Assembly (NCBI RefSeq): GCF_004138125.1
Contig: NZ_RXHS01000002.1
Location: 310,001-374,000, forward strand
From: Seramator thermalis
GTDB lineage: Bacteria > Bacteroidota > Bacteroidia > Bacteroidales > Dysgonomonadaceae
DNA length: 64,000 nucleotides
Direction: 5' to 3'
The position numbers were made by a program, and so were the translations under genes. Positions within the stretch are counted from its first letter, which is position 1, and every line of letters begins with the position of its first letter. Under the pieces are notes generated by a model. That model worked only from the letters and a program-made list of their open reading frames with translations, did not search any database and was not told the origin of the DNA. Below, piece after piece: positions 1-11,506 of this stretch.

Positions 1-717
1 AGTACAGGGTATGCATTACGAAAGGGTGGTTCATTTTATCAGAATCAGTGTGGAAATGGACAGTCTTATACAGGCTCAATTACTTTTAGAGCCGTTGAAG
101 CTTTGTTAAATTATATTGAAGCTTGCTATGAAAAAAACGGAACCATTGATTCTAAAGCTGATGAATATTGGAGAGCAATTCGTACTCGAGCTGGAGTGGA
201 TCCCGATTATAGCAAGACTATCACTGCAACAGATATGAGCAAAGAAGCACTCAACGATTGGGGGGCTTATTCAAAAGGGGTTTTATTAAACCCGACTTTA
301 TATAACATTAGGAGGGAACGCCGCAATGAGCTTATGGCAGAAGGGCTCAGATATATGGATTTGCGTCGTTGGAGAGCGATGGATCAAATGATCAATAATC
401 CTTATCATATAGAAGGAATAAAGATTTGGGGTGAAATGCAAAATTGGTATAAAAATGATGATGGTTCATCTCAGTTGATTTACGGGACAGATAAAGCTAA
501 TGTTTCATCTCCCGAAAGGAGTATGTATTTACGACCATATGAAAAAGTATCTACTTCGTTGGTATACAATGGATATAAATGGTCTATGGCACATTATTTG
601 CGACCTATTGCTGTTCAGCATTTCCTTATTACTGCATCGGATGGGAAAACAGTATCGACTTCACCGATTTATCAAAATCCGGGTTGGCCTACAGTTGCAG
701 GAGAAGGTGCAAAATGA
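1..717 (+). CDS. SusD/RagB-family outer-membrane nutrient-binding lipoprotein, C-terminal part
   Basis: The reading frame is open from the first base, so only about the last 238 residues are present; the lipoprotein signal and N-terminal TPR part lie outside the window. SusD proteins are surface lipoproteins that hold a glycan over a SusC TonB-dependent channel. Visible hallmarks are FRAVEALLNYIEA (the helix usually read as RyaEvlLnyAEA), the segment RRERRNELMAEGLRYMDLRRW, and a C-terminus with YLRPI and a final NPGWP. It leads the enzyme genes that follow on the same strand, the usual order after susC-susD in a utilisation locus. The family call is firm; the glycan it binds can only be guessed from the enzymes. 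Confidence 0.93.
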   Translation, partial: STGYALRKGGSFYQNQCGNGQSYTGSITFRAVEALLNYIEACYEKNGTIDSKADEYWRAIRTRAGVDPDYSKTITATDMSKEALNDWGAYSKGVLLNPTLYNIRRERRNELMAEGLRYMDLRRWRAMDQMINNPYHIEGIKIWGEMQNWYKNDDGSSQLIYGTDKANVSSPERSMYLRPYEKVSTSLVYNGYKWSMAHYLRPIAVQHFLITASDGKTVSTSPIYQNPGWPTVAGEGAK

Positions 718-745
718 TTTTAACAAGAATAAGTCATAATAATTA

Positions 746-2008
746 ATGTTTCGACGAAATTTTATTAAGGCAATGGGAATGACGGCAGCAGCAGGTATGC
801 TGCCGTCATATGCTCATGCCGCAAATGAAGGAAAGGAAAAGATTTTTTCAACGCATGTTCCCGGATCGGATCGTGAATATTTGTGGAAATTGCTCGCCGC
901 TATGGCGACACCGGTACTGGAAAGTATGTCGAAAGGCGAACTTCACAAGAAAATGCAGGTTGAGGTGAGCCCCACATGGGATGGCAGGGATAAGAAGGTG
1001 GCTTACCTGGAGTGTTTCGGTCGGCTGATGGATGGTCTTGCTCCATGGTTGACATTACCCGATGACGATTCCGAGGAAGGGAAAGTCCGAGAAAAACTTC
1101 GCGAACAGGCCTTAATGAGCTATGTTCATGCGGTGGATCCGAAAAGTCCCGATTATTTGCTTTGGAGAAAAGAAGGGCAGCCGCTGGTGGATTCGGCTTT
1201 CTTTTCGAGTGCGCTGCTAAGGGCACCGAAACACTTGTGGGAACCGTTGGACAAAACCACAAAAGAGCGAATCGTGACGGAATTGAAATTGTTACGTCGC
1301 GTGAAACCGCCGTATTCAAACTGGTTGCTTTTTGCAGCCATGAATGAGGTTTTTTTGTTGTCGGTGGGCGAAGATTATGATCCGATGCGTGTGGATTTGG
1401 CAGTAAAGAAAATCAACGAATGGTATGTTGGCGACGGTTGGTATGCAGACGGGGAAAGATTCCATTTCGATTATTACAATTCGTTTGTAATACAGCCCAT
1501 GTTGCTGAAGGTGACCGAAGTAATGGCTCAGACAAACCAATCGGGGAAAGGGGTATATGAGCAGGCATTGAGAAGGATACAGCGGTATTGTGAACACTTG
1601 GAGCGTCTTGTTTCGCCTGAGGGAACGTTTCCACCTATCGGCCGATCGTTGACCTATCGTACCGGTGCTTTTCAGCCATTGGCATTGCTTGCTTTACGAA
1701 AGCAATTGCCCGAGAAATTGTCGGAAGGGCAGGTAAGAGCTGCGTTGGTTGCTGTGCATCAACGTATTTTCAGTAATCCTACCAATTTCAACGAAGATGG
1801 ATTCCTGACGATCGGTTTTGCCGGACATCAGCCTGAATTGGGTGACAGCTACAGCAACAACGGGAGCATGTATCTCACTTCGGAAAGTTTTTTACCGTTG
1901 GGTTTGCCCGTCAATGATGTTTTTTGGACGGCAAAGACTGAAGATTGGACAGCGAAAAAGGCTTACAGGAACGACAAATTCAACAAAGATTATCCCGTAA
2001 ATTACTAG
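746..2008 (+). CDS. DUF2264 (GH154-type) secreted protein, possible exo-beta-glucuronidase
   Basis: 420 residues. The N-terminus FRRNFIKAMGMTAAAG followed by AHA is an exported signal with a twin-arginine look. The body, from about residue 38, reads as a DUF2264 all-alpha barrel, with Trp/Tyr-rich stretches such as WLLFAAMNE, GDGWYADGERFHFDYYNSFV and NGSMYLTSESFLPLGLP. From general knowledge DUF2264 corresponds to CAZy family GH154, which includes a Bacteroides beta-glucuronidase acting on arabinogalactan. It starts 28 nt after susD and ends 7 nt before the GH16-GH43 gene, so it is co-transcribed. Family assignment is good; the activity is inferred from family and neighbours. Confidence 0.8.
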   Translation: MFRRNFIKAMGMTAAAGMLPSYAHAANEGKEKIFSTHVPGSDREYLWKLLAAMATPVLESMSKGELHKKMQVEVSPTWDGRDKKVAYLECFGRLMDGLAPWLTLPDDDSEEGKVREKLREQALMSYVHAVDPKSPDYLLWRKEGQPLVDSAFFSSALLRAPKHLWEPLDKTTKERIVTELKLLRRVKPPYSNWLLFAAMNEVFLLSVGEDYDPMRVDLAVKKINEWYVGDGWYADGERFHFDYYNSFVIQPMLLKVTEVMAQTNQSGKGVYEQALRRIQRYCEHLERLVSPEGTFPPIGRSLTYRTGAFQPLALLALRKQLPEKLSEGQVRAALVAVHQRIFSNPTNFNEDGFLTIGFAGHQPELGDSYSNNGSMYLTSESFLPLGLPVNDVFWTAKTEDWTAKKAYRNDKFNKDYPVNY

Positions 2009-2015
2009 AAAGAAA

Positions 2016-3935
2016 ATGAAAAAAGATATATTGAAGTTCCCGATAAGTGTCTTGCTGTGTAATTTCGTTTTTTTATCTTTTTCGATAAGCCTTATCGCAC
2101 AAGAATATACCTTGGTGTGGAGTGATGAGTTTGACGAAGACGGGAAACCGAATCCTGCTTATTGGAGTTTCGAAAACGGGTTTGTGCGTAATCAGGAATT
2201 GCAATGGTATCAGGATGATAATGCGTATTGCAAAGACGGGATGCTGATTATTGAAGGGAGGCGCGAAAAAAAGCCCAATCCTCTTTATGTAAAGGGCAGC
2301 AATACCGATTGGAGAAGGTCGCGACCGTTTATCGAATATACTTCCTCTTCGTTGAAAACGGCAGGTAAAAAGGAGTTTTTGTATGGCCGTTTTGAAATAC
2401 GGGCACGAATACCGTTGGAAAGTGGTTCGTGGCCGGCCATTTGGACGTTGGGTACAACAATGGAGTGGCCTTCGTGTGGCGAAATCGACATTATGGAATA
2501 TTACCGAATAAACAATGAACCTCATCTTCTCGCCAATGTGGCATGGGGAACGGATGAACGGTATAAAGCGGAGTGGAGAACCCAAGCTGTTCCCTTTCGT
2601 CATTTTCTCGAGAAAAACAGCAATTGGGGAAAAGAATTTCATGTTTGGAGGATGGATTGGGAGGAAAATTCCATAAAATTGTATCTCGATGACGAATTGC
2701 TGAATGAAGTGTCGTTGAACAAAACCGTAAACGGTGCGTGGAGCAATTATACCCATCCGTTTAAACAACCGCATTACCTTTTGCTGAATTTGGCGTTGGG
2801 GGCCAATGGAGGTGAGCCTGATGTGTTGGCTTTTCCGATGAAATACGAAATCGATTATGTGAGGGTCTATCAGAAGAAAGAACAAGTGGTTCGTCCGGGT
2901 AGGCTTTGGTTGGACGACCGAGGCGAGCATATCAATGCCCACGGAGGAGGCGTGCTTTATCATGAGGGCAGCTATTATTGGTTTGGTGAGCACAAGAGCG
3001 AAAATAGTAATGCGGCGCTGGTCGGGATTAATTGTTATTCTTCCAATGATTTGGTGAATTGGAAATACGAGGGAGTGGCATTGCCGGTTTCGGATGATCC
3101 GAAAAGTGAGATTACAAAAGGATGTGTAATGGAGCGGCCAAAGGTGATTTACAATGAAAAAACCGGCAAGTTTGTGATGTGGTTTCATCTGGAGTTGAAG
3201 GGACAGGGATATAAGGCTGCACGTTCGGCATTGGCGGTGAGCGATAATGTGACGGGACCATATACTTTTGTTCGGTCCGAACGCATTAATAAAGGGTTTT
3301 ATCCGTTCGATATGCCGGAAGATATCCGAAAATTGCAATTCGACCCCGAGAAATATTCGACTTGGTGGACGCCGTCGTGGTATAAAGCGGTGGAGAACGG
3401 GTTGTTTTTGAAGAGAGATCTTGAGGAAGGTCAAATGGCCAGAGACATGACCCTCTTTGTGGACGATGACGGCAAGGCCTATCATATTTATGCTTCAGAA
3501 GAAAATCTTACATTGCATATAGCGGAACTTACAGAGGATTATACCGGTCATACCGGAAAATATATTCGCGTGGCGCCGGGAGGACACAATGAAGCACCAA
3601 CCATTTTTAAAAGAAAAGGTACCTACTGGATGATTACGTCGGGTTGCACGGGTTGGGAACCCAATGCAGCGAGGTTGTTTTCTGCTCCATCGATTTGGGG
3701 ACCGTGGAAGCAGCATTCCAATCCGTGCCGAGGAGAAAAATCGGAAATTACTTTCGGAGGACAGGGTACTTTTGTTCAGCAGGTTTACGGCAAGAAAGAT
3801 GCTTATGTTTTTATGGCGGATATGTGGAGGCCGAAATTTCCTATCGATGGACGGTATATGTGGCTTCCTGTAAAGTTTGAAAAGGATATTCCTTACCTGG
3901 AATGGATGGATGAGTGGGATTTGGATTTTTTGTAA
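2016..3935 (+). CDS. Bimodular GH16 - GH43 secreted glycoside hydrolase
   Basis: 639 residues with a signal peptide ending near residue 28. Residues about 30-288 form a GH16 jelly-roll lectin-fold enzyme; the active-site strand CGEIDIMEYY gives nucleophile E156, helper D158 and acid/base E161. From about residue 295 a five-bladed GH43 propeller follows, opening with INAHGGGVLYHEGSYYWFGE, a signature of the GH43 branch that includes exo-beta-1,3-galactanases, and continuing with a VMERPKVIYN strand. GH16 members cut beta-1,3/1,4-glucans or galactans internally, so the fusion would pair an endo-cutter with an exo-trimmer. The start is a clean ATG 7 nt after the previous stop. No break separates the modules, so this is one protein. 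Both families are clear; the exact linkage is inferred. Confidence 0.9.
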   Translation: MKKDILKFPISVLLCNFVFLSFSISLIAQEYTLVWSDEFDEDGKPNPAYWSFENGFVRNQELQWYQDDNAYCKDGMLIIEGRREKKPNPLYVKGSNTDWRRSRPFIEYTSSSLKTAGKKEFLYGRFEIRARIPLESGSWPAIWTLGTTMEWPSCGEIDIMEYYRINNEPHLLANVAWGTDERYKAEWRTQAVPFRHFLEKNSNWGKEFHVWRMDWEENSIKLYLDDELLNEVSLNKTVNGAWSNYTHPFKQPHYLLLNLALGANGGEPDVLAFPMKYEIDYVRVYQKKEQVVRPGRLWLDDRGEHINAHGGGVLYHEGSYYWFGEHKSENSNAALVGINCYSSNDLVNWKYEGVALPVSDDPKSEITKGCVMERPKVIYNEKTGKFVMWFHLELKGQGYKAARSALAVSDNVTGPYTFVRSERINKGFYPFDMPEDIRKLQFDPEKYSTWWTPSWYKAVENGLFLKRDLEEGQMARDMTLFVDDDGKAYHIYASEENLTLHIAELTEDYTGHTGKYIRVAPGGHNEAPTIFKRKGTYWMITSGCTGWEPNAARLFSAPSIWGPWKQHSNPCRGEKSEITFGGQGTFVQQVYGKKDAYVFMADMWRPKFPIDGRYMWLPVKFEKDIPYLEWMDEWDLDFL

Positions 3936-3975
3936 TTAATCGTGTCAATATACTTAATACTTATAAAAGGATTTA

Positions 3976-5271
3976 ATGCGACGTACTCTTCTTTTTTTGT
4001 TTTTGTTTTTGATCGGCGTGACCGGATATCCTCAAAAGTTGGTTCCTGCAGGAAAACGGGGATACAGTCAAACTTCTGTTAATACAGCAATTTTTCGTAA
4101 AAATTCGATCGTTACCCATAACGGTATTCAATATATTGCTTTTTATGATGAAAACGGGTATTTAACATTGGGGAAGAGAGAACTTGGGAATACCCAATGG
4201 ACATTTTATCTTTCGCAGTATAAAGGCAATTGCGAGGATGCGCATAATGTGATCAGTATCATGGTGGATGGCGAGGGTTTTTTGCATGTGGCTTTTAATC
4301 ATCACGGAAGTTCGCTAAACTATTGTAGAAGCCTCAGACCGGGATCATTGATACTTGGGAATAAGGAAATTATGGTAGGAAGAGATGAAACAGAAGTGAC
4401 TTATCCCGAATTTTATCGGCTGACGAACGGCGATTTGATTTTTGTTTACCGATCGGGTGGCTCAGGTCGGGGAAACCTGATTATGAACCGGTACGAAGCG
4501 AAGACAAAAACATGGCAGCGGGTGCAGAATGTGTTGATTGACGGAGAAAATGAGCGGAATGCATATTGGCAATTGTATGTGGATAATGTCAACACGATTC
4601 ATCTCTCATGGGTATGGCGCGAGACGCCGGATGTGGCTACCAATCACGATTTGTGTTATGCGCGATCGCGCGATGGCGGTGTGACGTGGGAAAAATCGGA
4701 CGGAGAAAAATACCGGCTTCCCATTACTGCCGAGAATGCCGAATATGTATGGCATATTCCGCAAGACAGCGAGCTGATCAATCAGACCGGCATGTGTGCC
4801 GATAAGAACGGCAATCCCTATATAGCTACCTATTGGCGCGATCGAGAAAGTACTGTTCCGCAATATCGCTTGGTATGGTTCGATGGAGAAACATGGCATA
4901 TGCAGCAGGTCTTCGAGCGGAAAACCTCTTTTACGTTGAAGGGAGGGGGAACCAAGAGAATTCCCATATCGCGACCTCAACTTGTTATTGATAATGAGCG
5001 CGGAAAGAATAACCTCTATTATATTTTCAGGGATGAGGAACGGGGAGATAAAGTTTCATTGGCATCGACTCGGGATCTTGAAAAAGGGATTTGGGAAACG
5101 CGGGATTTGACCGATTTTTCGGTTGGTGCCTGGGAACCGACCTATGATACGGAATTGTGGAGAGAAGAACATAAGCTGCATCTATTTGTACAACATACTG
5201 ACCAAGGAGACGGTGAAAAGACCGGCTTATTGTCACCCCAACCTGTATATATTTTAGAAGTAGAAAAGTAA
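3976..5271 (+). CDS. BNR_4 seven-bladed beta-propeller enzyme (PL24/PL25/GH145-like)
   Basis: 431 residues with a signal peptide (about 1-20). The body shows BNR_4-type repeats: NCEDAHNVISIMVDGEGFLH (residues 85-104), AYWQLYVDNVNTIHLSW, and WRETPDVATNHDLCYARS (214-231) followed by the sialidase-type Asp box SRDGGVTW. His90 and His109/110 are candidate catalytic residues by position in the family. Known relatives are ulvan lyases of PL24 and PL25 and the L-rhamnose-alpha-1,4-glucuronate hydrolase of GH145. The next gene encodes GH105, which removes the unsaturated uronic acid a lyase would leave, favouring a lyase or a rhamnosyl-glucuronate role. It cannot be decided from sequence alone whether it acts as lyase or hydrolase. 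Confidence 0.75.
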   Translation: MRRTLLFLFLFLIGVTGYPQKLVPAGKRGYSQTSVNTAIFRKNSIVTHNGIQYIAFYDENGYLTLGKRELGNTQWTFYLSQYKGNCEDAHNVISIMVDGEGFLHVAFNHHGSSLNYCRSLRPGSLILGNKEIMVGRDETEVTYPEFYRLTNGDLIFVYRSGGSGRGNLIMNRYEAKTKTWQRVQNVLIDGENERNAYWQLYVDNVNTIHLSWVWRETPDVATNHDLCYARSRDGGVTWEKSDGEKYRLPITAENAEYVWHIPQDSELINQTGMCADKNGNPYIATYWRDRESTVPQYRLVWFDGETWHMQQVFERKTSFTLKGGGTKRIPISRPQLVIDNERGKNNLYYIFRDEERGDKVSLASTRDLEKGIWETRDLTDFSVGAWEPTYDTELWREEHKLHLFVQHTDQGDGEKTGLLSPQPVYILEVEK

Positions 5272-5283
5272 AAGCAATGCAAT

Positions 5284-6414
5284 ATGAGAAGATTAAGTGT
5301 TACAATTTCGGTTTTATTTTTCATTTTTTTATCCACTTATAGTCAATCTCAAACGGAAGCGGATGAAGTGTTGAAAATCATGAGGAAAGTTAATGATTAT
5401 TGGCAAAAAAACTATTCGCCCACGGTGAATGCTTTTTGGGATAATGCTACTTATCATATAGGAAACATGGAAGCTTATTTTTTGACTAAAAATCCTGCTT
5501 ATCTCGATTATTCTTTAAAATGGGCCGAATACAACGAATGGAAGGGGGCCAAATCGGACGATAAAGAGGCATGGAAATATACCTATGGTGAAACAGACGA
5601 ATATGTGCTTTTTGGCGATCATCAGGCGTGTTTTCAGGTCTATATCGATCTCTATCGGATGGATCCGAAACCGTATAAAATTGCACGAGCTCGCGAGGTG
5701 ATGGAGTATCAGATGAGTACCGACAGAAGGAATTACTGGTGGTGGGCTGACGGTTTGTATATGGTGATGCCGGTGATGACCAAGTTGCATGTGGTTACCG
5801 GTAATCCGCTTTATCTGGAAAAATTGTACGAATATTGGAGTTATGCCGACAGCCTGATGTATGACAAAGAAGAAAGATTGTATTATCGTGATGCCAAATA
5901 TGTGTACCCGAAGCATAAAACGGTTAACGGGAAAAAAGATTTTTGGTCGCGTGGAAACGGTTGGGTTTTTGCGGCTTTTGCCAGGGTCTTACAGGATTTA
6001 CCAAAGACCGATCCGCATCGCGCTGTGTATATCGAACGCTTTCGCTCGATGGCTGAAGCATTGGCTGCTTGCCAACAGCCTCAAGGGTATTGGACACGCA
6101 GTTTGCTTGATCCCGAACATGCACCGGGACCGGAAACGAGTGGTACGGCTTTTTTCACGTATGGTTTTTTGTGGGGAATGAATAATGGTTATTTGGATAT
6201 GGGGAAATATGAACCCGTAATAAAAAAATCGTGGAATTATCTGCAGAATACGGCGCTTCAGCCCGATGGAAGAGTAGGGTATGTGCAACCAATTGGAGAG
6301 AAAGCCATTCCGGGTCAGGTGGTTGATGCCCATTCGACGGCCAATTTCGGTGTCGGGGCTTTTCTCTTGGCATCTTGCGAGATGGTGCGTTACCTGCAAA
6401 GCAAAAATAAATAA
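5284..6414 (+). CDS. GH105 unsaturated uronyl hydrolase
   Basis: 376 residues, signal peptide about 1-22, then an alpha/alpha six-hairpin barrel. Family marks are YWWWADGLYMVMPVMTKL with the likely catalytic Asp156, FWSRGNGWVFAAFARVL (220-236), and ETSGTAFFTYGFLWGMNNGYL. GH105 hydrates and releases a 4,5-unsaturated glucuronyl or galacturonyl unit from the non-reducing end of lyase products. It lies 12 nt after the BNR_4 gene, which supports a two-step lyase/hydrolase pair. In arabinogalactan breakdown a GH105 enzyme removes unsaturated glucuronate from galactose. Family is certain; the aglycone is inferred. Confidence 0.92.
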   Translation: MRRLSVTISVLFFIFLSTYSQSQTEADEVLKIMRKVNDYWQKNYSPTVNAFWDNATYHIGNMEAYFLTKNPAYLDYSLKWAEYNEWKGAKSDDKEAWKYTYGETDEYVLFGDHQACFQVYIDLYRMDPKPYKIARAREVMEYQMSTDRRNYWWWADGLYMVMPVMTKLHVVTGNPLYLEKLYEYWSYADSLMYDKEERLYYRDAKYVYPKHKTVNGKKDFWSRGNGWVFAAFARVLQDLPKTDPHRAVYIERFRSMAEALAACQQPQGYWTRSLLDPEHAPGPETSGTAFFTYGFLWGMNNGYLDMGKYEPVIKKSWNYLQNTALQPDGRVGYVQPIGEKAIPGQVVDAHSTANFGVGAFLLASCEMVRYLQSKNK

Positions 6415-6447
6415 ACAAGTTAAACGAAATACGAAATACGAAATAAT

Positions 6448-8961
6448 ATGAAGCATATGATAAAAATCAAGCATTTCTTTTTTCTGTCTTTTTTGTTTTT
6501 ATACGTTGTGAACTCTGCGGCTCAATGCGGATTTGGCAAAGCCGAGAAAATAAATGAGAATTGGAAATTTATTTTAAATGATCTCCCTGAAGCTAAGGAA
6601 GATAATTTTAATGACGAGAGATGGCAGAGGGTCGATTTGCCGCATGACTGGAGCATCCGCCAGCCTTTAAGTCCCACTCATGCCAGTTGTATGGGGTATC
6701 TTCCGGGAGGGATCGGCTGGTACCGCAAAAACATGCCTATTCCTGCCGAGAAGTCGGGTGAGAAAGTTTATCTCTATTTTGAAGGCATTTACAACCGAAG
6801 TGAGGTGTACCTTAACGGTCACCTGCTGGGTAAACGCCCAAACGGATATATTTCTTTTTTGTATGATGCTACACCTTATATTAAATATGGTCAGGACAAT
6901 GTTGTTGCGGTGCGGGTAGATCACAGTCGTACGGCGGATTCGAGGTGGTATACCGGTTCGGGTATCTATCGCAACGTGTGGCTGGTTTATGCAAATCCGG
7001 TACACATTGCTCAGTGGGGCGTGTATGCTTATCCTTCGGAAGCCAATGGTAAAAAAGGAATTTTACAAGTCGAAGTCGAGGTGACCAACGGAGGGGAAAA
7101 CACCGAGAATTTGACGGTCGTGAACGAACTGTTCGACGATCAGGGTAAAATCGTAACTGTACGGAAGAACAAATTATCGGTTGCGGCGGGTGAAAATTCA
7201 ACGCTTTCGACCGCTCTTTCCGTTTCCAAGCCCTATTTGTGGAGTATTGACCGACCGTATCTGTATACGCTTAAAACCACCTTACTGAAAAATGGCAAAG
7301 AAATCGATTCTTCGGTTACCAAAACAGGTTTCAGAAGTTATACTTTCGATCCGAACAAGGGATTTGCGCTTAATGGAGAGTGGATGAAAGTGAAAGGGGT
7401 ATGCCTGCATCATGACGCCGGCGTGTTGGGAGCGGCAGTCCCTAAGGACGTTTGGCGGCAACGTTTGTCAAGGCTGAAAGAGATCGGCTGTAATGCCATA
7501 CGCACCAGTCATAATCCGCAGTCTCCCGATTTATACGATTTATGTGATGAAATGGGTTTTTTGGTGATGGATGAAGCGTTTGACGAATGGGAATTTCCCA
7601 AACGCAAATGGATTGAAGGATGGAATGTGGGGACACCGGGATTTGACGGATCGTATGATTTTTTTGAGGAATGGGGTGAACGCGATTTGGCCGATATGGT
7701 GCGTCGTGATCGAAACCATATTTCGACTTTTGCCTGGAGTATCGGCAATGAAGTCGATTATCCCAACGATCCGTATTCGCATCTGGTGCTTGACGGAGGT
7801 GCCGATACCGGTTTCACTCAGCCGATTTTCGGCGGATACAAAAAAGATGCCCCCGATGCACGGCGATTGGGCGAGATTGCCAAACGGTTGGTGGCAGTGG
7901 TGAAAAGATATGATGCCACGCGTCCTACTACTGCCGGTTTGGCGGGTGTGGCCATGTCGAATGAAACCGAATATCCCTTTGTTTTGGACATAACGGGGTA
8001 CAATTATACGGAGAGCATGTATGATTCGGATCACAAGAAATATCCCGACAGAGTGATATTCGGCAGTGAAAACCGACACGATATGAGTGCATGGAAAGCG
8101 GTTCGCGACAAGGAATTCATTTTTGGTCAATTCCTCTGGACAGGCATCGATTATTTGGGCGAATCGGGACCTTGGCCTTCACGGGGATTTTATTCCGGAT
8201 TGATCGATTTTGGCGGGTCTATCAAGCCAAGGGGATATTTTCGTCAATCGCTTTGGTCGGATAAACCGATGGCTTATCTGGGCACCTATCCTACTCCCGG
8301 TAAAGGTGGAAAAAATCGGCTGTTTGATGTTTGGTCTCAGCTTGAAGCAGAGAAAAACGCAGATTTTGCAGAGAAAACGCCATCGATGGATGCATGGCCG
8401 ATTTGGAATTATCGGGAAGGGCAAATGATACGTGTGGTATGCTATACCAATGCCGCAAAAGCCAAACTGTTGCTTAACGACAGAGAGATTGGTGCGGTGC
8501 AAGATTATAACGATGAAACGGGCATTATCTATTGGGATATTCCTTATGAACCGGGTGTATTGAAAGTTATTGGTATGGATGCCGATGATAACGAAATAAG
8601 CACTTATGAGATCCGTACTTCGAAGAGACCTTACGCGTTGAAAATTATTCAGGAAGAGCAGCGGGTGGATCGGGAAGAAGGCGTTGCCCGAATTGCTCTT
8701 CAAGTGGTTGATGAAGACGGGATTCCGGTGATGATTTCGGACGATGAGATTACGTGTCATCTTTCCGGAAATGCGCGTCTGTTAGGGTTGGAGGCGAGCA
8801 ATAATTCGGATATGAGCGATTATACCGATAATGTGCATCGCGTATATCATGGACGGATAGTGGCATTTGTAAAATTGATAGATAAAAATTCGGACGAAAT
8901 AAAGGTGAAATTTACAGCCCCGTGGCTGCAACCGACCGAAATGGTTATCGAGGTGCGATAA
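6448..8961 (+). CDS. GH2 beta-galactosidase or beta-glucuronidase, secreted
   Basis: 837 residues, signal peptide about 1-25 (a second in-frame ATG lies 9 nt in). Order: N-terminal sugar-binding jelly roll (about 30-190, with LPHDW and GIGWYRK), Ig-like domain (about 195-305), TIM barrel (about 308-600) and Ig-like C-terminal domains. The acid/base is Glu435 in WSIGNEVDYP and the nucleophile Glu541 in FGSENRHDM. The HHD at the barrel start and IRTSHNPQSPDLYDLCDEMG are GH2 hallmarks. It is the last gene of the locus, with a strong terminator 25 nt on. Beta-galactosidase fits a galactan locus, but GH2 sequences of this type also include beta-glucuronidases. Confidence 0.93.
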   Translation: MKHMIKIKHFFFLSFLFLYVVNSAAQCGFGKAEKINENWKFILNDLPEAKEDNFNDERWQRVDLPHDWSIRQPLSPTHASCMGYLPGGIGWYRKNMPIPAEKSGEKVYLYFEGIYNRSEVYLNGHLLGKRPNGYISFLYDATPYIKYGQDNVVAVRVDHSRTADSRWYTGSGIYRNVWLVYANPVHIAQWGVYAYPSEANGKKGILQVEVEVTNGGENTENLTVVNELFDDQGKIVTVRKNKLSVAAGENSTLSTALSVSKPYLWSIDRPYLYTLKTTLLKNGKEIDSSVTKTGFRSYTFDPNKGFALNGEWMKVKGVCLHHDAGVLGAAVPKDVWRQRLSRLKEIGCNAIRTSHNPQSPDLYDLCDEMGFLVMDEAFDEWEFPKRKWIEGWNVGTPGFDGSYDFFEEWGERDLADMVRRDRNHISTFAWSIGNEVDYPNDPYSHLVLDGGADTGFTQPIFGGYKKDAPDARRLGEIAKRLVAVVKRYDATRPTTAGLAGVAMSNETEYPFVLDITGYNYTESMYDSDHKKYPDRVIFGSENRHDMSAWKAVRDKEFIFGQFLWTGIDYLGESGPWPSRGFYSGLIDFGGSIKPRGYFRQSLWSDKPMAYLGTYPTPGKGGKNRLFDVWSQLEAEKNADFAEKTPSMDAWPIWNYREGQMIRVVCYTNAAKAKLLLNDREIGAVQDYNDETGIIYWDIPYEPGVLKVIGMDADDNEISTYEIRTSKRPYALKIIQEEQRVDREEGVARIALQVVDEDGIPVMISDDEITCHLSGNARLLGLEASNNSDMSDYTDNVHRVYHGRIVAFVKLIDKNSDEIKVKFTAPWLQPTEMVIEVR

Positions 8962-9239: not shown

Positions 9240-11477
9240 TCATTCATAAAAATTATCCTGCGACGGAGGAGCATCCTGTGGCGCACTTCCCCAAGTGAGG
9301 TTGGCTCTGTTGCTCATAGTCAATTCGAGAACTCCTCCGTTCTTAATATCATCGTGACCAAACCAAGGTTTTGTCCATTTTTTGCCGTTTAAAGTCGCCG
9401 ATTGGATATACTTGTTGTCTTCATTGCAATTGTGAGCAATAATTTTCAAATCCTTGCCGTTGGCAAGTTTCAAGGTAATCGACTCGAAAAAGGGGCTACC
9501 GATATTATATGCCGGAATGCCGGGCGTGACAGGATAAAAACCCATTTGCGAAAAAACGACAAATGCCGACATACCGCCTCCATCTTCATCTCCCGGGACG
9601 CCCATCAAATCGTTTCTGAACCATTCGTGAATCAACTGTCGGATTCGTTTCTGTGTTTTCCAGGGCTGGCCGGCATAATTATAAAGATAAGGGATGTGAA
9701 GCGAAGGCTCGTTCGCCATAGAGAATTGGCCTACGTTGCCGGTTTGATCGGGAAGCTGAGCATAAAAATCGTATTTACTTTTTCCGAGAGGCTCACGAAA
9801 TGTTTGATCGAGATTCCGTACAAACTGTTCTCTACCTCCCATCAAGCGAATGAGATCGGCCACATTATGCTGAACATCCCAACGATAAGTCCACCCGTTG
9901 TTTTCATCGTAATATTGACGAGCACCCATTCCGCCGGAAAACCTATAATCAAACGGTTCGATAAAATTTCCATCTTTATCCTTGGGATGGAAAAAGCCGG
10001 TTGCGGGATTAAACAAATTGCGATAATTATACGATTTATCGAGGAAATAACGATAATCGGCTTCATTCCCAATTTCTTTGGCAATCTGAGCGAGGCACCA
10101 TTCGTCATAGGAAGTGCCGAGTGTAACGGCAACAGGCTGACGTTTTTCGAAAGGATGAACTTCGGGAAAGGGTTCTTTCTCACCTTCTTTCAAAGCAGGA
10201 ATATAGCCGTGTTCGTGATAAAACCGATCGAGTTCGCCGGCGGGTTTTGCCGACCAGGGTGCCAATGTTTTTTCCATGACGGCATTGCGCGTTGCCGGGT
10301 ATATTTTTTTCAAATCGATATTTGGCACGCCTTTTCGATAGGCATCGAGGACAGCAGCAATCCCGTGATTGGAATTCATGAGACGCGCATCGCCCGTAAC
10401 CTGAGGAAATGTTGGCCACCAAAAATTTGACATCTGTTCGGACATGCGCAAAAACGAACGCAGGATATTACTTTCGGTTTGGGGATCGATAAGCACACGC
10501 AAGGGATGAGCGGCACGATATGTGTCCCATATCCAATCGTCGGTGAAGAAAGGAACGCCCTCGTCGTTGTGCACTTTACCATCGAAAGCACTGAAATAAC
10601 GGCCATCCTCCGAAATGCAAACCGGTCGTTCGTAAACTCTGTACAAAGAAGTATAGAACACCACCTTATCGTCGTACGAACCACCATTCACCTGAATCTT
10701 GCCCAGTGCATCGTTCCAAATTTTTCGACCTTTTTCGGCAACAGCCGACAGATTGAAATCGGCGATTTCGCGATTTAGATTTTTCTTTGCCTGATCGGCA
10801 TCGATAAACGAAATGCCATATCTGACCCTAATCGACTTAGCCGTAGCCGGATAATGCAAAACAATGCAGGCATCTTTATTGGAATTTCTGGCATTATCCA
10901 CATGCTGCGGAGCAATATCGGGCTCCAGGTAAACAAAAACTTTGGTATTGTTTGCGAGTTCTTCGTAACCTGAAACGGCTTTGCCATCCCATTTCAAGTC
11001 ACCGTTTTTCGCACTCACGATCAGAAACGAGGGCTTATTGCGTTCGAAACCGAATTGATAGATGGCCGATTGATGCGATACGGCATATTTAACATCGATT
11101 TGTTGTTCGTCCAAATATACCGAATACTCGTAGGGCTTTATTTTTTCGAGGTCGTAACTGTAAGCCATCACGGGTTTTATTTCCGATTCGTCGCCCTGAA
11201 AAGGGCTGATGCAAAATGCGGAGGCTCCGCGGTGTGTGGTTAATATGACAGGCAGGCCATTCAACAAATCGCCGGTATAATCGGCACGATTGGGATAAAC
11301 ACGCATCATGCTGTTTGGCAAATGCACAGTGGGATAGGTAGGCACAAGCAGATGACTGATATTGCCCATGCAGGGATTCACAAAATCAACCCAATTAACG
11401 GAAGATTTCCCTTGCGAAAAAACAGAAAACGAAAAAACCAGACTGAGAAAGAGGAAGAAAAATCTAACTTTTTTCAT
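9240..11477 (-). CDS. GH92 family alpha-mannosidase-like exo-enzyme
   Basis: About 745 residues. An upstream in-frame start at 11501 would add 8 residues before the signal peptide, so MKKVRFFFLFLSLV at 11477 is preferred. GH92 marks: VNPCMGNISHLLVPTYPTVH, the long VWDTYRA-like segment DDWIWDTYRAAHP, the SMANEPSLHIPYLYNY strand carrying the presumed acid, and GDEDGGGMSAFVVFSQMGFYPVTPG with the Ca-proximal acidic residues. GH92 enzymes are calcium-dependent, inverting and mostly act on alpha-mannosides. The GDEDGGGMSA wording differs from the common GNEDCGQMSA, pointing to a less-studied branch, so substrate is uncertain. It is transcribed alone toward the tRNA. Confidence 0.9.
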   Translation of the reverse strand: MKKVRFFFLFLSLVFSFSVFSQGKSSVNWVDFVNPCMGNISHLLVPTYPTVHLPNSMMRVYPNRADYTGDLLNGLPVILTTHRGASAFCISPFQGDESEIKPVMAYSYDLEKIKPYEYSVYLDEQQIDVKYAVSHQSAIYQFGFERNKPSFLIVSAKNGDLKWDGKAVSGYEELANNTKVFVYLEPDIAPQHVDNARNSNKDACIVLHYPATAKSIRVRYGISFIDADQAKKNLNREIADFNLSAVAEKGRKIWNDALGKIQVNGGSYDDKVVFYTSLYRVYERPVCISEDGRYFSAFDGKVHNDEGVPFFTDDWIWDTYRAAHPLRVLIDPQTESNILRSFLRMSEQMSNFWWPTFPQVTGDARLMNSNHGIAAVLDAYRKGVPNIDLKKIYPATRNAVMEKTLAPWSAKPAGELDRFYHEHGYIPALKEGEKEPFPEVHPFEKRQPVAVTLGTSYDEWCLAQIAKEIGNEADYRYFLDKSYNYRNLFNPATGFFHPKDKDGNFIEPFDYRFSGGMGARQYYDENNGWTYRWDVQHNVADLIRLMGGREQFVRNLDQTFREPLGKSKYDFYAQLPDQTGNVGQFSMANEPSLHIPYLYNYAGQPWKTQKRIRQLIHEWFRNDLMGVPGDEDGGGMSAFVVFSQMGFYPVTPGIPAYNIGSPFFESITLKLANGKDLKIIAHNCNEDNKYIQSATLNGKKWTKPWFGHDDIKNGGVLELTMSNRANLTWGSAPQDAPPSQDNFYE

Positions 11478-11498
11478 GACATATTTAATTTGGAGTAC

Positions 11499-11506
11499 CA
11501 AATTTA
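11499..11506 (-). promoter_or_regulatory. Bacteroidetes -7 element for the GH92 gene
   Basis: On the minus strand this reads TAAATTTG, a match to TAnnTTTG, 21 nt before the preferred GH92 start. A TTTG lies 23 nt further up (11530-11533), slightly beyond the usual 19-21 spacing. If real, transcription starts just upstream of 11477 and excludes the upstream alternative start. Confidence 0.5.

Follow-up and report, generated by a model that had tools for sequence, protein, structure and literature searches.

A compact SusC/D locus of a Seramator-like genome, probably for type II arabinogalactan capped with rhamnose and glucuronate

Introduction

Loci for the use of rhamnose/glucuronate-capped arabinogalactan are already known. 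The arabinogalactan loci of Bacteroides thetaiotaomicron (BT3677, BT3683, BT3686, BT3687), whose extent we take to be BT3674-BT3687, encode a DUF2264/GH154 protein, a GH43_24, a GH145 and a GH105 enzyme, as does the locus described here, and the residue numbering of BT3683 implies a large module before its GH43_24, which is consistent with a GH16-GH43_24 fusion. GH145, GH105 and GH43_24 are likewise found in one SusC/D locus in the wine-arabinogalactan locus PUL5 of B. plebeius (PMC8406133). The B. plebeius GH145 has no posterior catalytic His, and the activity that it shows on wine arabinogalactan is that of a lyase (PMC8406133), whereas this residue (His48) is present here, and B. plebeius needs a sulfatase for the use of sulfated glycans (PMC8406133), whereas none adjoins the present locus. 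The PUL25 of B. caccae contains a DUF2264 dehydratase and an unsaturated uronyl hydrolase (BcGDH/BcGH88), the same kind of pair as here with 47% identity between the DUF2264 proteins, but has a different substrate, chondroitin, and different partners, GH88, PL35 and GH109 (PMC12269599). The enzymes listed for acacia gum are GH16, GH43, GH154/GH105, GH145/PL27 and GH27/GH97 (PMC11107946). Furthermore, B. oleiciplenus harbors a run Sensor-SusC-SusD-GH43_24-DUF2264-GH145-GH105 (L116, G001:C3:352001-371999) that contains neither GH16 nor GH2, and the GH145 of which has a Gln at position 48.

The sequence-only reading of the DNA analysed here had proposed a comparison with known arabinogalactan loci, and a core common to those of B. 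thetaiotaomicron and B. plebeius is indeed found. The locus differs from its B. thetaiotaomicron counterparts in that its DUF2264 protein is of the short BcGDH/BD-beta-Gal type (420 aa), while BT3677 is a two-domain protein of 673 aa (PMC12269599), and in that arabinose catabolic genes adjoin it. To this core we add the dehydratase reading of the DUF2264 protein, the finding that the GH145 of a Seramator-like genome has both sites, the neighbouring arabinose genes and enzyme fusions in relatives. As a compact locus outside the well-studied gut Bacteroides, it allows GH154 as a dehydratase to be tested on a defined plant substrate.

Results and Discussion

Organization of the locus and its neighbourhood

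The window, i.e., the whole analysed stretch of 64,000 nucleotides (G000:C22:310001-374000), belongs to a genome of 2.98 Mb that is 99.97% complete, and the nearest named genome in a GH145 search is Seramator thermalis of the family Dysgonomonadaceae (95% identity). Positions 1-8961 contain the C-terminal part of SusD and the complete DUF2264, GH16-GH43, BNR_4, GH105 and GH2 reading frames (Table 1). The families of these six reading frames were assigned with Pfam and NCBIfam profiles, with matches far over the cut-offs. All six lie on one strand, with intergenic gaps from SusC to GH2 of 12, 28, 7, 40, 12, and 33 bp, so that the tightly spaced run from SusD to GH2 (gaps of 7-40 bp) described before is borne out. 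A SusC/SusD pair, co-directional carbohydrate enzymes and a sensor, as expected for a polysaccharide utilisation locus, are all present. Gene content, gene order, family membership, active-site residues and conservation in relatives are read directly from the DNA. A scan of the locus for promoters and terminators gave a signal close to the shuffle expectation. A GH92 glycosidase (window 9240-11501, minus strand; TIGR01180, 744 bits) is convergent with the locus and apparently a separate unit.

Table 1. Coordinates of the locus features; numbers without a prefix are window positions.
Feature	Position	Strand	Remarks
Hybrid two-component sensor, 1430 aa, divergent	L009:869-5161	-	Reg_prop, Y_Y_Y, HisKA, HATPase, response regulator, AraC-type HTH
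SusC	L009:5489-8698		12 bp ahead of SusD
Full SusD gene, 668 aa	L009:8711-10717		begins 1290 bp upstream of the window
SusD-like outer-membrane glycan-binding lipoprotein, C-terminal 238 aa	1..717	+	PF07980 (SusD_RagB) 1.7e-25
DUF2264 ("GH154") protein, probable beta-D-glucuronate dehydratase	746..2008	+	PF10022 1.4e-122
GH16-GH43_24 fusion, 639 aa	2016..3935	+	GH43 1.1e-19, GH16 1.7e-14
GH145, BT3686 type (BNR_4)	3976..5271	+	BNR_4 6.1e-96; NCBIfam AlphRhmnaseBT3686 751.8 bits
GH105, predicted unsaturated beta-glucuronyl hydrolase	5284..6414	+	PF07470 (Glyco_hydro_88) 3.5e-92
GH2 glycosidase, probably beta-galactosidase	6448..8961	+	Pfam N-terminal, central and C-terminal domains

An arabinose-type locus precedes the sensor (L010:246-19499) and consists of SusC/SusD, DUF3823, a GH43 with GH43_C, a sodium:solute symporter, GH127, GH97 and GH51. 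By inspection, three further genes in it were read as araD, araA and araB and are a probable araBAD set. The neighbouring locus with its GH43, GH127, GH97, GH51 and araBAD-like genes probably handles arabinose decorations. KduI and RhaA, which are needed for the use of the products, are both encoded in the genome.

The propeller protein is a GH145 of the BT3686 type

The BNR_4 protein, a relative of seven-bladed propellers which occurs once in the genome like the DUF2264 protein, reaches 751.8 bits with the NCBIfam equivalog of the alpha-L-rhamnosidase BT3686, for which the cut-off is 700 bits, and it matches the structures 5muk/5mul with 643 bits. In BT3686, the posterior His48 hydrolyses the Rha-alpha-1,4-GlcA linkage of gum arabic, whereas the anterior residues His90, Tyr143 and Arg333 provide a lyase activity on wine arabinogalactan (PMC8406133). 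All four residues (H48; H90, Y143, R333), and with them the rhamnosidase and the lyase site, are present here. We therefore infer an alpha-L-rhamnosidase/rhamnose-glucuronate lyase of the BT3686 type, and the earlier assumption of a propeller enzyme acting on rhamnosyl-glucuronate fits the equivalog score as well as the catalytic residues. Throughout 80 related GH145 loci the anterior triad is invariant, and His48 is found in 29/80.

GH145 is structurally related to the PL25 ulvan lyases and shares the triad with them (PMC8406133), and ulvan lyases match the BNR_4 protein weakly. Hence the locus might target ulvan or another sulfated rhamnose-glucuronate polysaccharide, with the propeller acting as a PL25-like lyase and GH105 removing the unsaturated uronate, but this is extremely improbable. 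The ulvan-lyase matches are very weak (E about 1e-5 versus 1e-192 for BT3686), and GH43_24 and the GH16 clade described below have no role on ulvan. Moreover, neither an ulvan lyase nor sulfatases, as an ulvan locus would hold, were seen: the locus and the sequence read upstream of it are free of sulfatases, and the six of the genome are all on other contigs. The sequence-only reading had taken the lack of a sulfatase in the visible part as evidence against ulvan and had named sulfatases or alginate-type enzymes in the missing 5' part as evidence against arabinogalactan. Only the sensor gene, SusC and the remaining portion of SusD lie in the recovered 5' part, so that the first argument holds and the second case does not occur.

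In B. oleiciplenus, a GH145 with Gln48 has a SASA esterase on one side and an alginate-lyase/beta-helix protein on the other (L126:8320-13178), neighbours which suggest that not all GH145 enzymes are for arabinogalactan. Candidates for PL27 in two B. oleiciplenus regions proved to be a GH115, a kelch-like protein and an alginate-lyase-like protein. The genome analysed here has one GH115 gene, located on another contig.

The DUF2264 protein is more likely a dehydratase than a glucuronidase

For a DUF2264 member of B. caccae, glucuronate dehydratase activity was shown in 2025 (JBC), which provides GH88 with a delta-4,5-unsaturated end, and BT3677, the founding member of GH154, has dehydratase activity, too (PMC12269599). 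In addition, DUF2264/GH154 genes co-occur with GH88/GH105, and the conserved active site contains no glycosidase-type acid/base or nucleophile (PMC12269599). The protein described here is 62% identical to its nearest structure, 8OI4, and 47% identical to BcGDH, and it has kept nine of the ten active-site residues that were mutated in BcGDH (E74, R78, N176, N177, W178, F181, Y229, R285, Y289, Y354); the exception is N176, replaced by Ser in the present protein and by Thr in 8OI4. The GH154 assignment of the sequence-only reading was to a glucuronidase. On the basis of these residues and of the recent literature (PMC12269599), the protein is more likely a glucuronate dehydratase, which would turn terminal GlcA into the unsaturated GlcA that GH105 acts on. 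With such a dehydratase GH105 would have a substrate even without a lyase.

As 8OI4 (BD-beta-Gal) is reported as a beta-1,6-galactosidase, we keep a second reading, in which the substrate is the same arabinogalactan, the DUF2264 protein is a true glycosidase (beta-1,6-galactosidase or beta-glucuronidase) and GH105 is fed by the lyase site of GH145. It is in line with the name of this closest structure, with the first report on BT3677 as an exo-beta-1,6-glucuronidase, as quoted in PMC12269599, and with the anterior lyase triad, which is intact here and invariant in the 80 loci; the product of the B. plebeius GH145 lyase is indeed cut by GH105 (PMC8406133). However, an active site without glycosidase acid/base or nucleophile (PMC12269599) and the nine kept residues, which are essential for dehydratase activity, make this reading rather unlikely. 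A LacZ contamination is suspected by the authors of PMC12269599 behind the beta-1,6-galactosidase-like activity in their own preparations. The N-terminus of the DUF2264 protein (window 746-830), MFRRNFIKAMGM, looks like a twin-arginine export signal.

The idea that a GH145 with His48 needs a dehydratase, whereas a lyase-only GH145 does not, was rejected, since no association between His48 and DUF2264 was found in the GH145 loci (10/20 versus 25/40 loci, P = 0.41); this outcome counts against the pathway proposed below.

GH105 and GH2

The GH105 protein matches PF07470 and is closely related to a member from an arabinogalactan locus, 5noa, its nearest PDB entry (610 bits), which argues for an unsaturated glucuronyl hydrolase. 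The nearest PDB entry of the GH2 protein is 5t9a (566 bits), and both the acid/base motif SIGNE and the nucleophile motif SEN are present, so it is probably a beta-galactosidase. A beta-glucuronidase is not favoured, as the N-x-K motif after the nucleophile is lacking.

The GH16-GH43_24 fusion and its relatives

In the fusion protein the GH16 module comprises about residues 30-288 and the GH43_24 module about residues 290-639. The latter shares 63% identity with BT3683 and has retained its O4-recognising Glu367, the unusual base Gln577, which replaces the usual Asp, Trp541 at subsite -1 and Cys538, while Asp490 is changed to Glu as in Ct1,3Gal43A (residues from PMC7939473). By these residues the module carries the signature of GH43 subfamily 24, i.e., of exo-beta-1,3-galactanases, and not a xylan-type active site, in agreement with the exo-beta-1,3-galactanase postulated before.

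The assignment of the GH16 module is less direct. It has kept the region of the three-Trp motif of subfamily 3, and most of its PDB matches are laminarinases. As the GH16 enzymes specific for galactan evolved from beta-glucanases (PMC7419316), the module might itself be a laminarinase and the locus might serve a mixed diet of plant or fungal glucan and galactan. However, the module forms a clade (99/98) with the GH16 of other GH145 loci, apart from the sampled laminarinases; its sister, on a long branch, is the mucin O-glycanase 6t2n. The tree was built on a small sample in which most sequences were picked for lying in GH145 loci. In almost every member of this clade, Ala or Cys takes the place of the His that follows the nucleophile motif in the sampled laminarinases and the O-glycanase, and this His is not present here. 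Moreover, in the GH145 loci seen, GH16 modules are either joined to GH145, GH105 or GH43_24 or lie close to them, and four other GH16 genes of the genome, with lipoprotein-like N-termini, could be laminarinases. Taken together, laminarin specificity is disfavoured and a laminarinase in this position is very unlikely. Laminarin- or xylan-active subfamilies of the two modules would have contradicted the sequence-only reading; its GH16 endo-galactanase is compatible with the separation from the sampled laminarinases, and the specificity as an endo-beta-1,3-galactanase we infer from gene context.

Fusions of these enzymes are also found in relatives. One 997-aa reading frame of a Bacteroidales genome (G084, L132:9980-12973, minus strand) joins GH105, GH16 and GH43_24, with 60-62% identity to the enzymes of the window, and lies beside a hybrid two-component sensor gene. 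Dysgonomonas capnocytophagoides has the reversed order GH43_24-GH16 (L124:5094-7043, minus strand), with a SusC/SusD pair and a sensor as neighbours, and a Dysgonomonadaceae assembly encodes a GH145-GH16 fusion of 710 aa (L077:1104-3233, plus strand), in which His48 is replaced by Tyr and the anterior triad is intact. GH16 is joined to three further enzymes that we place in one pathway, and the order varies, which is good evidence for one shared substrate. The fused enzymes are possible tools for dismantling arabinogalactan proteins. Two further loci look decayed: at L048:9959-11500 a GH145 is followed by a stop and a GH16 remnant, a relict of a GH145-GH16 fusion, and at L022:2481-3782 a GH43 has lost most of the preceding GH16 core. 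Both could be assembly errors.

Proposed pathway

In its sensor, SusC/D pair and six catalytic modules, the locus is most probably a complete one for type II arabinogalactan with beta-1,6-galactan side chains capped by rhamnose-alpha-1,4-glucuronate. The enzyme set matches the acacia gum list (PMC11107946) and supports the capped arabinogalactan proposed from the first reading. Each activity in the organism is deduced from gene family and residues, and the steps would be the following. SusC/D would import galactan fragments, and in the periplasm GH145 would remove the rhamnose cap, hydrolytically via His48, or alternatively act as a lyase through its anterior triad on modified caps. The DUF2264 protein would then dehydrate the exposed GlcA to unsaturated GlcA, which GH105 would cut off. 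GH2 would remove side-chain galactose, GH16 and GH43_24 would dismantle the beta-1,3-galactan, and the GH127, GH97, GH51 and GH43 of the neighbouring locus would deal with arabinose and related decorations. Among the enzymes of the locus no convincing lipobox was found (GH2 has a weak AAQC), and these steps are therefore probably periplasmic. A clear surface endo-enzyme was not seen in the locus, which counts against the arabinogalactan reading; other proteins or the neighbours may be responsible for cleavage at the surface.

More tentatively, and with the odds slightly against it, we propose that the caps are lost without any glucuronidase, in a relay from GH145 (His48) via DUF2264 to GH105, and that the fusions in relatives physically couple cap removal to backbone cleavage. 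If this relay is true, annotations of GH154 as "glucuronidase" in arabinogalactan loci are wrong.

Conservation and co-occurrence

Seramator thermalis (85-95% identity) and UBA1410 (80-97%) have the genes from SusC to GH2 in the same order, and in both GH51 adjoins the locus. Seramator thermalis shares the sensor, GH127, GH97 and araA as well and has an extra SusC/SusD pair. Among the 60 GH145 loci for which 18 kb or more of sequence was available, 35 carry DUF2264 and 28 a GH105 of the same type as here. At least one relative of DUF2264, GH105, GH43_24 or GH16 is present in 46/60, and the remaining 14/60 have none of these partner genes, thus GH145 alone is no proof of arabinogalactan. When 148 other Bacteroidales genomes were drawn evenly, the GH16 clade occurred in 8, GH43_24 of the same type as here in 12 and both together in 4, compared with 0.65 expected (P = 0.0015, with relatedness of the genomes ignored).
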